Source of the DNA: Rhodococcus spelaei
GTDB lineage: Bacteria; Actinomycetota; Actinomycetes; Mycobacteriales; Mycobacteriaceae
NCBI RefSeq assembly: GCF_006704125.1
Contig: NZ_VIGH01000004.1
Location: forward strand, 186,001 to 250,000
Length of the DNA: 64,000 bases
Direction of reading: 5' to 3'
The translations under genes were made by a program, and so were the position numbers. Shown here one piece after another: positions 26,166-31,872 of the stretch. How positions within the stretch are numbered: position 1 is the first letter of the stretch; every line of letters starts with the position of its first letter. Under the pieces are notes generated by a model, which saw nothing but the letters and a program-made list of their open reading frames with translations, was not told the origin of the DNA and did not search any database.

Positions 26166-27344
26166 GTGACCTTCACCCGATCGACCCGTGTCGCGACCCT
26201 GGTTCTCGGTCTCGGAATGCTCGCCGCGTGCGGCACCTCGGGGACCGACTCGACGACGTCGGCGGCCCCGCCCACGACGACCGAGGTCCCGAACCGGGAC
26301 CTGGTGACCGGGGCCCGCGACCAGAACGAGCCGGCGGTGTGCGGCGCCGACTTCCTGGCCGGGCTCTCGCCGCGGCAGAAGCTCGCGCAGCTGTTGAACG
26401 TCGGCGTGACCGGGACCGCCGACGCGGTGGACGTGGTGCGCCGCGAGCAGGTCGGCGGCATCTTCGTCGGCAGCTGGACCGACGAGTCGATGCTGGCGGG
26501 CAAGCAGGTACCGCAGGTCGAGGCGGTCGCGAAGGTGCCGCTGATGGTGAGCATCGACGAGGAGGGCGGACGCGTGTCGCGGGTCGCGGACCTGCTCGGC
26601 GACGACCCCGCGCCGCGGACGGTCGCGCAGACGATGACGCCGGAACAGACCTATCAGATGGCGTTGACCCGGGGCCGCCAGCTGCACGACCTCGGCATCA
26701 CCGTGAACTTCGCGCCGGTCGTCGACGTCAGCGACCAGCCGGCGAACTCGGTGATCGGGGACCGGTCGTTCTCCGGTGACCCGGCGGTCGTGACGCGTTA
26801 CGCCGGCGAGTACGCCCGCGGCATGCGCGACGCCGGGGTGTTCCCGGTGATCAAGCACTTCCCCGGCCACGGGTCGGGGTCGGGCGACTCGCACACCGGC
26901 GAGGTGACGACGCCGCCGCTGGACCAGTTGCAGACACGAGACCTGGTGCCGTACCGCACGCTCGTGACCACCGGCGTCGGTGTGATGGTCGGGCACCTCG
27001 ACGTGCCGGGCCTGACCGCGCCCGGTGTGCCCGCGAGCATCAGCCCGGCGGCGATGAACCTGCTGCGCACCGGGACCGGCTACGACGCGCCGCCGTTCGA
27101 CGGCCCGATCTTCACCGACGACCTGTCCGGGATGCGGGCGATCACCGACCGGATGGACATCGCGCACGCGGTCGGGGCCGCGCTGACCGCGGGCGCGGAC
27201 GTCGCGTTGTGGTTGACCACGGCACAGGTGCCGGAGGTGCTCGACCACCTCGAGCAGGTCGTGTCGTCGGGTCAGCTGAGCGCGCAGCGGGTGGACGCGT
27301 CGGTGCTGCGGGTGGCGCGGGCCAAGGGCGTCGTCAGCTGCTGA
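26166..27344 (+). CDS. lpqI: Lipoprotein beta-N-acetylglucosaminidase, GH3 (LpqI/NagZ-like)
   Basis: 392 residues. A lipobox LAAC at residues 19-22 follows a short signal, so it is a surface lipoprotein. GH3 fold with the NagZ motif KHFPGHGSGSGDSH near 229 carrying the catalytic Asp-His dyad, and the nucleophile Asp in FTDDLSGM near 318. Cleaves GlcNAc from muropeptides in wall recycling. GTG 26166. Followed by the TetR gene as in Rv0237-Rv0238. Confidence 0.9.
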   Translation: MTFTRSTRVATLVLGLGMLAACGTSGTDSTTSAAPPTTTEVPNRDLVTGARDQNEPAVCGADFLAGLSPRQKLAQLLNVGVTGTADAVDVVRREQVGGIFVGSWTDESMLAGKQVPQVEAVAKVPLMVSIDEEGGRVSRVADLLGDDPAPRTVAQTMTPEQTYQMALTRGRQLHDLGITVNFAPVVDVSDQPANSVIGDRSFSGDPAVVTRYAGEYARGMRDAGVFPVIKHFPGHGSGSGDSHTGEVTTPPLDQLQTRDLVPYRTLVTTGVGVMVGHLDVPGLTAPGVPASISPAAMNLLRTGTGYDAPPFDGPIFTDDLSGMRAITDRMDIAHAVGAALTAGADVALWLTTAQVPEVLDHLEQVVSSGQLSAQRVDASVLRVARAKGVVSC

Positions 27345-27418: not shown

Positions 27419-27436
27419 TCTTACTCTAGAGTAAGA
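27419..27436. promoter_or_regulatory. Operator palindrome in front of the Rv0238-type tetR
   Basis: TCTTACTCTAGAGTAAGA is a perfect 18-bp palindrome 48 bases before the tetR start. The core TTACT-N4-AGTAA recurs in the fabG4/fadA2 intergenic region at 30467-30486. Most likely the regulator's own operator. Confidence 0.8.
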
Positions 27437-27486
27437 TCGACTGTGGGGTCTCCACCGCGTGTGGGACCGCAGACTCTGGAGGAATG

Positions 27487-28080
27487 ATGGCTGGCGGCAC
27501 CAAGCGGCTCCCTCGCGCAGTGCGCGAGCAGCAGATGCTCGACGCCGCGGTCGAGGTGTTCTCCGCGAACGGCTTCCACGACACCTCGATGGACGCGATC
27601 GCCGCCGCTGCCGAGATCTCCAAGCCGATGCTCTACCTCTACTACGGCTCCAAGGACGAACTGTTCGCCGCGTGCATCGCCCGCGAGGGACTGCGTTTCG
27701 TCGAGGCCATCACCCCGGCCGCCGACCCGCACCTGACGCCGCGCGAGCAGTTGCGCGCCGCGCTCGTCGGGTTCCTCGGGTTCGTCGACGAGAACCGGCC
27801 GTCGTGGATGGTGCTCTACCGGCAGTCGATGTCCCAGCAGGCGTTCGCGTCGCAGGTGCAGGGCAGCCGGCAGCGGCTGATCGAGCTGACCGCCAAACTG
27901 CTCGAGTCCAGCACCAAGGACCCGGAGCCGGGTACCGATTTCGGCATCATGGCCGTCGCACTGGTCGGCGCGGGCGAGGCGGTCGCGGACCGCGTCGCGG
28001 GTGGCGAGATCGCCGTCGACGCCGCCGCAGACCTGCTCGAGAGCCTCGCCTGGCGCGGCCTCGCAGGCAAGAAGAAGTAG
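27487..28080 (+). CDS. TetR-family regulator (Rv0238-like)
   Basis: 197 residues. N-terminal helix-turn-helix TSMDAIAAAAEISKPMLYLY with the YYGSKDELF that follows it. The C-terminal ligand domain is unassigned. Two adjacent ATGs (27484, 27487); the second is favoured by GGAGG at 27478-27482. The gene is followed at once by htdX-fabG4 on the other strand. The same palindrome precedes this gene and lies between fabG4 and fadA2, so it probably represses itself and those lipid genes in response to an acyl-CoA or similar ligand. Confidence 0.9.
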   Translation: MAGGTKRLPRAVREQQMLDAAVEVFSANGFHDTSMDAIAAAAEISKPMLYLYYGSKDELFAACIAREGLRFVEAITPAADPHLTPREQLRAALVGFLGFVDENRPSWMVLYRQSMSQQAFASQVQGSRQRLIELTAKLLESSTKDPEPGTDFGIMAVALVGAGEAVADRVAGGEIAVDAAADLLESLAWRGLAGKKK

Positions 28081-28094
28081 TAGCGCGCCGCCCC

Positions 28095-28145
28095 GGGTGA
28101 TGGGAACCTTCGCCCGGTCTGACCGGTAGAAGGTTCCCATCACCC
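28095..28145. repeat. 51-bp dispersed inverted repeat, copy B (bidirectional terminator)
   Basis: Perfect 17-bp arms (28095-28111 with 28129-28145) and a centre GCCCGGTCTGACCGGTA that can itself fold. Lies between the convergent tetR and htdX genes. Same element as 12167-12217. Confidence 0.8.
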
Positions 28146-28167
28146 AGCCCGTGGGCGGCCGAGTCGT

Positions 28168-29061
28168 CTACCGCAGGGTCGCGGTCAGGTGCGGGTACCC
28201 CTTCTTCGGGTTGCGCATGGCCAGGTCCCAGCCCGACCCCCCGACACCCGAGGCACTGTCGCCGGTGACCTCGTCGGCGTAGACGTTCACCGTTGCCGGC
28301 AGCACCACCGGCTTGCCGAACTTGACGCGGTAGGTGACCGAGTCGGCGACCCGACCTTCCACCGCGCCGAGCACGGCGGCTGCGCTCCACATGCCGTGTG
28401 CGATGGTCCGCGGGAACCCGAATGCCTTGGCGCCCAACGACGACACGTGAATCGGGTTGCGGTCACCGGAGACGGCCGCGTACTTGCTGATGGTCTTCTG
28501 GTCCACCCGCAGGGTGCGCATGGGCTGCGGAGGCGTCTCCTCGGTGCGGGGCGCCTTCTCCTCCCTCGGCGCCCCGGTGGGGTGCATCTTCAGGAAGCTG
28601 CTGACCTGACGCCAGACCAGTTCGCGGCCGACGTTGATCTCACTGACCAGGTCCACCTGGGTGCCCTTCGGGTGCGCGCGCAGGTTCTCCGCGTGCACCT
28701 TCAGGTCCAGCGGCTCGCTCGCCGAGATCGGTCGCAGCTGCTCGATCACGTTGTCGGTGTGCACGGAACCGATTGCCGGGAAGGGGAACTCGGCCGAGAC
28801 CATCAGCTTCATCACGGTCGGGAACACCAGCGTGAACGGGTAGGTGATCGGCAGGGTGTCGCCGAACCTCAGCCCGCACACTCGCGTGTACGCAGCCAGG
28901 TTGTCGGTGTCGACCCGCAGTCCCTTCAGTGCGAGGGTCTGCTCGGGCAGGCTGCGCCGACCGCCCGACTTCCCGACCACCGGCAGCGAGCCGAGAGCGG
29001 CGCGCGCGTAGATGTCGAGGGTGCTCGGCTGCCGGTCGAGTTCGATCACGCGGCCCGCCAT
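28168..29061 (-). CDS. htdX: (R)-3-hydroxyacyl-thioester dehydratase, MaoC family
   Basis: 297 residues with a double hot-dog fold. The hydratase motif is seen as YAAVSGDRNPIHVS followed by GFPRTIAHGMWS, with the catalytic Asp and His. Hydrates or dehydrates (R)-3-hydroxyacyl thioesters. The ATG at 29061 shares one base with the fabG4 stop (TGATG), so the two are coupled. Order and orientation match Rv0241c-Rv0242c. Confidence 0.92.
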   Translation of the reverse strand: MAGRVIELDRQPSTLDIYARAALGSLPVVGKSGGRRSLPEQTLALKGLRVDTDNLAAYTRVCGLRFGDTLPITYPFTLVFPTVMKLMVSAEFPFPAIGSVHTDNVIEQLRPISASEPLDLKVHAENLRAHPKGTQVDLVSEINVGRELVWRQVSSFLKMHPTGAPREEKAPRTEETPPQPMRTLRVDQKTISKYAAVSGDRNPIHVSSLGAKAFGFPRTIAHGMWSAAAVLGAVEGRVADSVTYRVKFGKPVVLPATVNVYADEVTGDSASGVGGSGWDLAMRNPKKGYPHLTATLR

Positions 29062-30407
29062 CAGGCACCCAGCAGCGACTGGCCGCACACCCGGACGATC
29101 TGACCGGTGACGGCGTTGGAGGCGGGGCTCGCGAAGTACGCGACCAGCTCTGCGACGTCGACGGTCTGACCGCCCTGCAGCAGCGACGACATCCGGCGTC
29201 CGGCCTCGCGGGTCGCGAACGGGATCGCGGCGGTCATCGCGGTCTCGATGAAGCCGGGTGCGACGGCGTTGATGGTGATCTGCTTCTCCGCCAACACCGG
29301 AGCGGTGGCCTGCACCAGGCCGATGACGCCGGCCTTCGAGGTGCCGTAGTTGGTCTGGCCGCGGTTGCCCGCGATGCCGGCGATCGAGGACACGTCGACC
29401 ACCCGGCCACCCTCCTTGAGCGCGCCCTTGGCGACGAGGTGGTCCGTGATCTTCTGCGGCGCAAGCAGGTTGACGCCGATCACCATGTTCCAGCGGGCCT
29501 CGTCCATGTTCGCCAGCGTCTTGTCGCGGGTGATGCCGGCGTTGTGCACGATGATGTCCGCGCCGCCGTGCCGTTCGAGCAGGTGCGCGGCCAGCTTCTC
29601 CGCGGCGTCCTCGGCGGTGACGTCGAGCGCGAGCGCGGTGCCGCCGACCTTGTTCGCGGTGTCCGACAGCTCGGCGCCGGCGGCCGGGATGTCCGCGCAC
29701 ACGACGTGCGCGCCGTCGCGGGAGAGCACCTCGGCGATGGTCGCGCCGATGCCCCGGGCGGCGCCGGTGACGACGGCGACCTTGCCCTCGAGCGGCTTGT
29801 CCCAGGAGGCGGGGGCGACGGAATCGGCGGCGCCGACCCGGATCACCTGACCGCTGACGAACGCCGACTTCGCCGAGAGCAGGAAGCGCAGGGTGGACTC
29901 GACGCCGGACAGTCCGGTCGCGGCCTTCGGGGAGACGTAGACCAGCTGGGCGGTCGCGCCGCGCTTGACCTCCTTGCCGACGCTGCGGGTGAATCCCTCG
30001 AGCGCGCGCTGGGCGATCTGCTCGTCGACGCCGGACGTCTCCTCGGGGGTGGTGCCGAGGACCACGACGCGGGCGCTGGGTGCGAGGTTGCGGATGACCG
30101 GCTGGAAGAACTCGAACAGCCCGACCAGCTCGGTGACCTGGGAGATGCCGGTGGCGTCGAACACGAGTGCGCCGTAGCGGTCGTCGTGCGGCTGCGCGGT
30201 GACGTAGTCCGAGAGCAGCGCGCGCAGCGGCTCGACCAGGCGGCCGGCGCCGCCGATGACGATGGGACCGGCCAACGGCGGTTCGCCGGCCTTGTAGCGC
30301 CGCAGGTGCTCAGGCTGCGGCAGTCCGGCCTGCTTGGCGATGAATGCGCCCGGCGCGGACGAGAGGAAACTGGAGTAGAGGTCGGGAGCGCCCTTGCTGG
30401 CTGCCAC
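29061..30407 (-). CDS. fabG4: 3-oxoacyl-(ACP/CoA) reductase, high-molecular-weight type
   Basis: 448 residues, close to the 454 of mycobacterial FabG4. The N-terminal ~210 residues form a degenerate flavodoxin-like/SDR domain; the C-terminal SDR has GAARGIG, NAG and the Ser-Tyr-Lys triad ([14 protein letters not shown]). Reduces 3-oxoacyl-CoA, with NADH preferred in the known homologue. GTG 30407 with AAGGTGG upstream. It is divergent from fadA2, with the shared operator between them. Confidence 0.92.
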
Positions 30408-30466
30408 GGTCCACCTTCTTTGTCGCGAAATCGGGCACCCGCTGTCCGGGTGCGGTGTCGACATTG

Positions 30467-30486
30467 AACTTACTCTGCAGTAAGTT
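30467..30486. promoter_or_regulatory. Operator palindrome between fabG4-htdX and fadA2
   Basis: AACTTACTCTGCAGTAAGTT has perfect 8-bp arms around CTGC. The core TTACT-N4-AGTAA equals that in front of the tetR gene at 27419-27436. Sited to control both divergent transcripts. Confidence 0.8.
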
Positions 30487-30540
30487 TGATGTCGAGGCAG
30501 GATCCCAATGCATCGAGATCCCACATACATGGAGACCGAC

Positions 30541-31872
30541 GTGACCCCCAGAGCCCGAAACAGCAAGCCGGCCGCAGCCCCCAAGGCCGGTGGCAGGCAA
30601 CTTCGCCCCGTCGCCATCCTCGGCGGCAACCGCATCCCCTTCGCGCGCTCGGACAAGGCGTACGCGCAGGCGTCCAACCAGGACATGTTCACCGCCACCC
30701 TGGACGGCCTGGTGAGCCGGTTCAACCTGCAGGGCGAGCGGCTCGGCATGGTCGCCGGCGGTGCGGTGCTCAAGCACAGCCGCGACTTCAACCTCATCCG
30801 CGAGTCGGTCCTCGGCAGCGCGCTCAGCCCGTACACCCCGGCGTTCGACCTGCAGCAGGCCTGCGGCACCGGCCTGCAGTCGATCGTCGCGGTCGCCGAC
30901 GCCATCGCCGCCGGACGCATCGAGTCGGGCATCGGCGGCGGCACCGACACCACCTCCGACGCTCCCATCGGCGTCAACGACGAGCTGCGCGAGTTCCTGC
31001 TCTCGGTCAACCGCGCCAAGACCACCGCCGACCGGGTCAAGCTGCTCGGCCACGTCCGCCCCTCGATGGTCGGTCTGGAGATCCCGCGCAACGGCGAGCC
31101 CCGCACCGGACTGTCGATGGGCGACCACGCCGCGATCACCGCCAAGGAGTTCGGCATCCGGCGCGAGGACCAGGACGAGCTGGCCGCCGCGAGCCACAAG
31201 AACATGGCAGCCGCCTACGACCGCGGTTTCTTCGACGACCTGATCACCCCGTTCCTCGGCCTGACCCGCGACGACAACCTGCGGCCCGGCTCGACCGTGG
31301 AGAAGCTGGCCACCCTCAAGCCGGTGTTCGGCACCAGGCTCGGCGACGCGACGATGACGGCCGGCAACTCCACCCCGCTCACCGACGGCGCCTCCGTCGC
31401 GCTGCTGTCGACCGACGAGTGGGCCGCCGAGCGCAACCTGCCGGTGCTGGCGCACCTGGTCGACTCCGAGACCGCCGCCGTCGACTACGTGCACGGCGAC
31501 GACGGCCTGCTGATGGCCCCGACCTACGCCATCCCGCGGCTGCTGGCCCGAAACGGCCTGACCCTGCAGGACTTCGACTACTACGAGATCCACGAGGCGT
31601 TCGCCTCCGTCGTGCTCGCGACGCTGCAGGCCTTCGAGTCGGACGAGTACTGCAAGGAGCGGCTCGGCCTCGACGGCGCGCTCGGCTCCATCGACCGCAG
31701 CAAGCTCAACGTCAACGGATCCTCGCTGGCGGCCGGGCACCCGTTCGCCGCGACCGGCGGCCGGATCGTCGCGTCGCTGGCGAAGATGTTGGCGGAGAAG
31801 GGATCCGGTCGCGGCCTGATCTCGATCTGCGCGGCGGGCGGCCAGGGCGTCACCGCGATCATCGAGCGGTAG
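30541..31872 (+). CDS. fadA2: Acetyl-CoA acyltransferase (thiolase)
   Basis: 443 residues from GTG 30541; ATGs at 30508 and 30529 are alternatives. GTG is preferred because GGAG lies 6 bases before it and VTPRARNSK aligns with the known mycobacterial N-terminus. Thiolase active site: Cys in QQACGTGLQ near 108, His in [13 protein letters not shown] near 400 and Cys in [11 protein letters not shown] near 431. Cleaves 3-ketoacyl-CoA in beta-oxidation. Ends before a strong terminator. Confidence 0.92.

Follow-up and report, generated by a model that had tools for sequence, protein, structure and literature searches.

Genes and operators of the locus

The window analysed here, a stretch of 64,000 nucleotides from Rhodococcus spelaei (contig NZ_VIGH01000004.1, positions 186,001 to 250,000), contains a gene for a TetR-family regulator of the FdmR/Rv0238 type, an adjacent pair of divergent transcription units for fatty-acid enzymes (the divergon), and two palindromes which are probably the operators of this regulator. 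The regulator gene (27484..28080, plus strand) encodes a protein of 198 amino acids with the domains TetR_N and TetR_C_46. On the minus strand it is followed by a gene for an htdX-like hydratase with a MaoC domain (28168..29061, PF01575) and a gene for a fabG4-like 3-oxoacyl reductase (29061..30407, NF006110, E 2.6e-205), which overlaps the start of htdX. A gene for a fadA2-like thiolase with the domains Thiolase_N/C is located on the plus strand (30508..31872, NF006740, E 1.9e-235), its start being uncertain between 30508 and 30529, and an aldo/keto reductase gene comes after fadA2. A glycoside hydrolase family 3 (GH3) gene (26166..27344, plus strand, PF00933) lies 5' of tetR, a position that is presumably that of Rv0237/lpqI; it was used as a synteny marker and is considered to be outside the regulon. 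The gene order GH3, tetR, MaoC, fabG4, thiolase is that of the Rv0237-Rv0243-type neighbourhood in which FdmR is found, Rv0237 being taken by us as the GH3 gene and Rv0241c as htdX.

Operator 1 (27419..27436), TCTTACTCTAGAGTAAGA, is located 5' of tetR (fdmR) and is a perfect palindrome of 18 bp with an exact match to the core. Operator 2 (30467..30486), AACTTACTCTGCAGTAAGTT, is located between fabG4 and fadA2. It consists of two perfect arms of eight bases each flanking CTGC and reads TAAGTT on both strands. The two are the only matches to TTACTNNNNAGTAA in the window, and the number expected from 100 shuffles was 0. The pair of perfect or near-perfect palindromes with a common core, described at these positions in the earlier note, is a real observation and was confirmed. 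Operator 2 also forms the inner part of a longer palindrome (30458-30495), which is imperfect. As 15 of its 17 arm bases were judged by eye to be paired, both divergent promoters look nearly mirror-symmetric.

The whole source genome (4.8 Mb in 18 contigs) contained six sites matching TTACTNNNNAGTAA and none matching the reversed control. Summed over 61 family genomes, the counts were 234 sites for the core and 25 for the reversed control. Because of these counts the core cannot be called frequent at random places, an objection that the earlier note had itself named. The six exact sites comprise the two in the window and four outside it, and all of them adjoin the start of tetR or of a gene for a lipid enzyme. 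At the enoyl-CoA hydratase gene (L001) the last base of the operator is the first base of the start codon. The other three sites lie about 40 bases 5' of an acyl-CoA dehydrogenase gene (L002), about 10 bases 5' of a gene for a DUF4442 hotdog protein (L005), and about 65-80 bases 5' of a gene for a two-domain reductase/SDR protein (L006). Together with HtdX, FabG4 and FadA2, this predicted target set covers the four steps of a beta-oxidation cycle, and the enzymes may run as such a cycle.

Conservation and sequence of the operator

Sites were scored by the number of matching bases among the 10 core bases. A hit of at least 146 bits was regarded as a clear orthologue of the regulator, the next hits reaching at most 91 bits. 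A clear orthologue was present in 55 of the 61 family genomes and missing from six (G121, G123, G125, G147, G150 and G164). All 55 regulator-bearing genomes had an operator of at least 9/10 at the divergon, 5' of fadA2. The link which the earlier note had drawn between tetR and htdX-fabG4/fadA2 from the shared operator is supported. Before the regulator gene itself, a site of at least 8/10 was present in the 30 best-matching family loci and reached at least 9 in 26 of them. The named loci, which are the best 80 of 573, all belong to Rhodococcus, Prescottella, Rhodococcoides, Antrihabitans or Nocardia, and the site before the regulator reached a score of 8 or more in 78 of them, including 75 with at least 9. 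A further site of at least 9 was present downstream of the regulator in 64 of the 80 loci; no such site was found within the stretch examined in the remaining 16, some of which are short records. Among the matches listed, the closest named relatives were Rhodococcus tukisamuensis, Rhodococcus sp. RD6.2 and R. maanshanensis, with 90-93% identity.

The site was also present in two families (f13 and f11; L034-L046) that belong to the order but are distant, where it scored at least 8 before the regulator in all 13 loci and at least 9 in 12. In f13 the regulator gene is divergent from an open reading frame (ORF) starting with MTDFDPANFANVGPKEFAQLV or similar, and the operator lies between them. In f11 (L041, L044) the operator lies between the regulator gene and a divergent ORF which starts with MFSLDLSEEQ and looks acyl-CoA-dehydrogenase-like by eye.

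The acyl-CoA dehydrogenase gene is located on another contig of the source genome. Its operator scored at least 8 in all 54 regulator-bearing genomes examined (10 in 36, 9 in 16 and 8 in 2), while base-shuffled upstream regions, taken as background, scored 9 in 9 of 1,850 cases. No match to the dehydrogenase gene was obtained in the regulator-bearing genome G128. In G133, G155, G006 and G030 the match was only 48-53% identical, and orthology is therefore less sure in these four. Two operators precede the dehydrogenase gene in many genomes (L218-L241, L286-L304), mostly 21-25 bp apart and in a few cases 16 or 34 bp apart; this arrangement suggests that the regulator may bind there as paired dimers. 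The operator of the DUF4442 gene scored at least 8 in 27 of the 37 genomes examined, the gene being present in 49 genomes that have the regulator. The predicted control extends past the divergon to unlinked genes, and the wide role which the earlier note had considered possible for the regulator is supported.

Weaker sites were seen at other genes of the source genome. An MCE-family (MlaD) gene has a one-mismatch site at its start (L007, 1501-1514), and another such site lies about 50 bp before a gene for an MlaF/Mkl-like ABC ATPase (L008, 1501-1514), hinting that lipid import may belong to the same network. A pair of related sites with two mismatches each, spaced by 23 bp (L016, 1501-1514 and 1524-1537), was found between an ORF, labelled wax-ester-synthase-like by eye from its translation, and a biotin carboxylase gene. 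Two near-consensus sites (L011, 1501-1539) precede a MaoC-domain gene by about 350 bp and a long ORF of the opposite strand by about 180 bp.

The sites at fadA2 (55), the dehydrogenase gene (30) and tetR (30) gave a 20-bp consensus, ANCTTACTCNNGAGTAAGNT. Its right end was mostly TAAG(A/G)T in the tetR and dehydrogenase sets. The terminal T was present in 57 of 60 fdmR and fadE sites, compared with 37 of 60 for the mirror base (Fisher p 1e-5, which is not a strict probability for related sequences). At the divergon the terminal T was present towards fabG4 in 55 of 55 genomes and towards fadA2 in 19 of 55. In the window a putative -10 element, TAAGAT (27432..27437, plus strand), identified by eye, would overlap the right half of operator 1. 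At the DUF4442 gene of the source genome, TAAGAT is followed by six bases and then by ATG, as judged by eye; this spacing is that of a leaderless start in actinobacteria. These features suggest that one half-site may double as the -10 element, in which case RNA polymerase would be shut out by the bound protein. Such an overlap makes repression likely, not certain.

Relation to FdmR and FasR

The window regulator is apparently what corresponds to FdmR in Rhodococcus. Its probable orthology with Rv0238 was deduced from the neighbourhood (GH3, tetR, htdX, fabG4 and fadA2) and from the single clear orthologue per genome. Genomes of genus g2, which was taken as Mycobacterium, carry a copy of the regulator with 55-63% identity. 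The TetR-like regulator of PDB 3F1B, known as a solved structure only, matched with an E value of 1.2e-104 over 197 residues. It very likely represents this regulator in a different Rhodococcus, which we take to be Rhodococcus RHA1. FdmR of M. marinum was reportedly treated by Dong et al. in PNAS in 2021. In a literature search that did not include Dong et al. 2021 itself, no earlier statement of the operator was found.

The regulator had been regarded as uncharacterised in the earlier note, but Rv0238 has already been named FdmR (PMC12403877, PMC9262360). FdmR is described as a repressor that responds to long-chain acyl-CoA and acts on genes for the degradation and modification of fatty acids (PMC12403877). 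It is reported to regulate fadE5 together with further genes of catabolism, and M. marinum that has lost it is reported to show defective growth but high fatty-acid use (PMC9262360). Rv0238 is also one of five TetR regulators listed as conserved in every mycobacterium studied, including M. leprae; the motif table of that source, which deals with divergently placed regulators, does not contain Rv0238 (PMC4482099). FdmR and the window regulator have in common the TetR family and the location close to fabG4 (Rv0242c) and fadA2 (Rv0243), as judged for Rv0238 by Rv numbering. FdmR controls fatty-acid degradation genes, and the operators found at such genes predict the same here. However, the window gene belongs to a Rhodococcus-type genome, and fadE5, a reported FdmR target (PMC9262360), is not next after fadA2 in the window.

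The next relative with a solved structure was FasR (Rv3208; E 4.2e-16), a TetR paralogue with about 30% identity to the regulator within the window genome. FasR is likewise an acyl-CoA sensor, and its operator has a related core. In contrast to FdmR, it is described as an activator of fas-acpS and not as a repressor of degradation, its fas sites have other outer bases, and it forms a separate clade in the tree. With the FasR family model NF053731 the window regulator scored 90 bits, below the cut-off of 330.

The core TACTNNNNAGTA is common to the fas (FasR) promoter sites and the operators of the regulator, and the two groups differ at the outer bases. When one rule was applied to all sets (core at least 7/8), the sites at fadA2, the dehydrogenase gene and fdmR had T/A as their outer pair in 113 of 130 cases, compared with 5 of 48 fas sites from 47 fas upstream stretches; the fas stretches were longer, and more chance matches are therefore expected in the fas set. 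A core of at least 7/8 was present in 31 of the 47 fas upstream regions. The full core was found in only 5 of the 48 fas sites, and the FasR motif is thus weakly defined from fas promoters. The DNA in the FasR crystal contains TACTGGCGAGTT, which has the core less one base (PMC7382501).

The regulator-less genomes of genus g46 (G121 and G147) had no clear FasR either, the best hits of the FasR query being 32-34% identical and falling in another clade. Although fadA2 and fabG4 are still divergent in both, no operator was found at the divergon, where the best score was 7 and no full core was present within 10 kb. At the dehydrogenase and DUF4442 genes of G147 the score was just 7. The genomes of genus g50 (G125 and G150) lack the regulator and contain FasR, at 60 and 56%. 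Their divergons carry two tandem sites each, 22-23 bases apart (L431 5938-5971 and L432 6545-6579). Three of these sites have the form GCTACTC..GAGTAGC, and the fourth has GAGTAAC on its right side. The DUF4442 sites in g50 scored 8 and 7. No core of at least 7/8 was detected in the 900-base stretches 5' of the g50 fas genes (L411-L413).

Proposed regulation and alternatives

The results are in all probability explained by the regulon of an FdmR-type repressor with 20-bp operators at its own promoter, at the divergon and at a small set of unlinked fatty-acid genes, which would overlap -10 elements and be freed in response to acyl-CoA. The tetR product would bind the consensus operator as a dimer. 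It would be bound at its own promoter and at the shared fabG4-htdX/fadA2 promoter region, and also at the unlinked genes for the acyl-CoA dehydrogenase, the enoyl-CoA hydratase, the DUF4442 hotdog protein and the SDR/reductase protein. One half of the operator is predicted to coincide with a -10 element TAAG(A/G/T)T of the TAnnnT type, so that bound repressor and RNA polymerase would be mutually exclusive. If the analogy with FdmR of M. marinum holds, the repressor would be released by long-chain acyl-CoA. Release would then switch on the beta-oxidation cycle, namely the acyl-CoA dehydrogenase, the MaoC and crotonase hydratases, the FabG4 reductase and the thiolase.

Several results weigh against this interpretation or narrow it. 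In the 11 loci of genus g2 the site before tetR scored at least 9 in one and at least 8 in five, the best scores being 9 in one locus, 8 in four, 7 in two, 6 in one and 5 in three. In genus g84, taken as Streptomyces, it scored 9 in one of 10 loci, 7 in one and at most 6 in eight. The predicted self-control is strong in Rhodococcus and Nocardia and weak in g2. The self-repression proposed in the earlier note is accordingly retained as a prediction for the Rhodococcus and Nocardia group; as a general rule it was rejected, being unsupported in g2 or g84. The crotonase (enoyl-CoA hydratase) site reached at least 9 in only 9 of the 30 loci examined, out of 49 listed, and the DUF4442 gene had no site in 10 of 37 loci. 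Three regulator-bearing genomes had no exact core genome-wide, although near-matches remain. The regulator-less genome G150 had the exact TTACTNNNNAGTAA core, with other flanks, before the dehydrogenase gene, where G125 scored 9/10, and the six regulator-less genomes contained 0, 1, 0, 1, 2 and 4 exact cores genome-wide. Some of the sites could also be those of FasR, because this paralogue has a related operator core.

It was considered whether the operators are bound chiefly by the paralogue FasR, which senses acyl-CoA and activates fatty-acid synthesis, tetR being only one of the FasR targets. The position of FasR as the next relative with a solved structure, the crystal DNA close to the core (PMC7382501), the cores in 31 of the 47 fas upstream regions, and the core sites that the FdmR-less, FasR-bearing g50 keeps at its divergon and dehydrogenase promoter would agree with this. 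The outer T/A pair disfavours it, however, identical sequence precedes tetR itself across many genera, and the g50 divergon reads GCTACTC..GAGTA(G/A) and not CTTACTC..GAGTAAG, which makes FasR as main binder quite unlikely. A sharing of overlapping sites by the FdmR-type regulator and FasR, resulting in cross-control of degradation and synthesis, is doubtful. The common core is consistent with it, as are intermediate sites in the source genome before the MCE-family gene (L007), the ABC ATPase gene (L008), fas (L010, named from a frame of roughly 3,100 codons) and the biotin carboxylase gene (L016), but the two groups are clearly set apart by their outer bases, and the FasR motif is weakly defined. 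Both palindromes are inverted repeats, and short matches in two copies can arise by chance; chance or another use, for example as terminators or attachment sites, was nevertheless rejected as extremely improbable on the basis of the shuffles of the window, the reversed controls in the 61 genomes, and the place before orthologous genes, which is conserved in all 55 genomes for the divergon and in all 54 for the dehydrogenase gene. Regulation by an FdmR-type repressor is therefore the preferred explanation.

For genus g50, it is conceivable, though rather unlikely, that FasR took over the fabG4-htdX/fadA2 divergon when the CTTACTC..GAGTAAG operator gave way to a tandem pair of the form GCTACTC..GAGTA(G/A). 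The operators of FdmR and FasR would then differ mainly at the outer bases; g46, which has neither FdmR nor a clear FasR, has no operator at the divergon. This proposal comes from two genomes with mixed evidence.

The finding is sound, but it concerns a member of a known system and is mostly known in kind. New are the depth of conservation, the closeness of the operator to FasR sites and the possible takeover by FasR in one FdmR-less genus. The analysis provides a precise operator for a repressor that 55 of the 61 sampled family genomes possess, extends the predicted regulon to Rhodococcus and Nocardia, and supplies a list of target genes for lipid-using rhodococci. It also shows a close resemblance between the operator of this regulator and that of FasR, the regulator of fatty-acid synthesis. 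If the takeover is true, g50 would offer a natural example of one regulator being replaced by another while the target stays the same.

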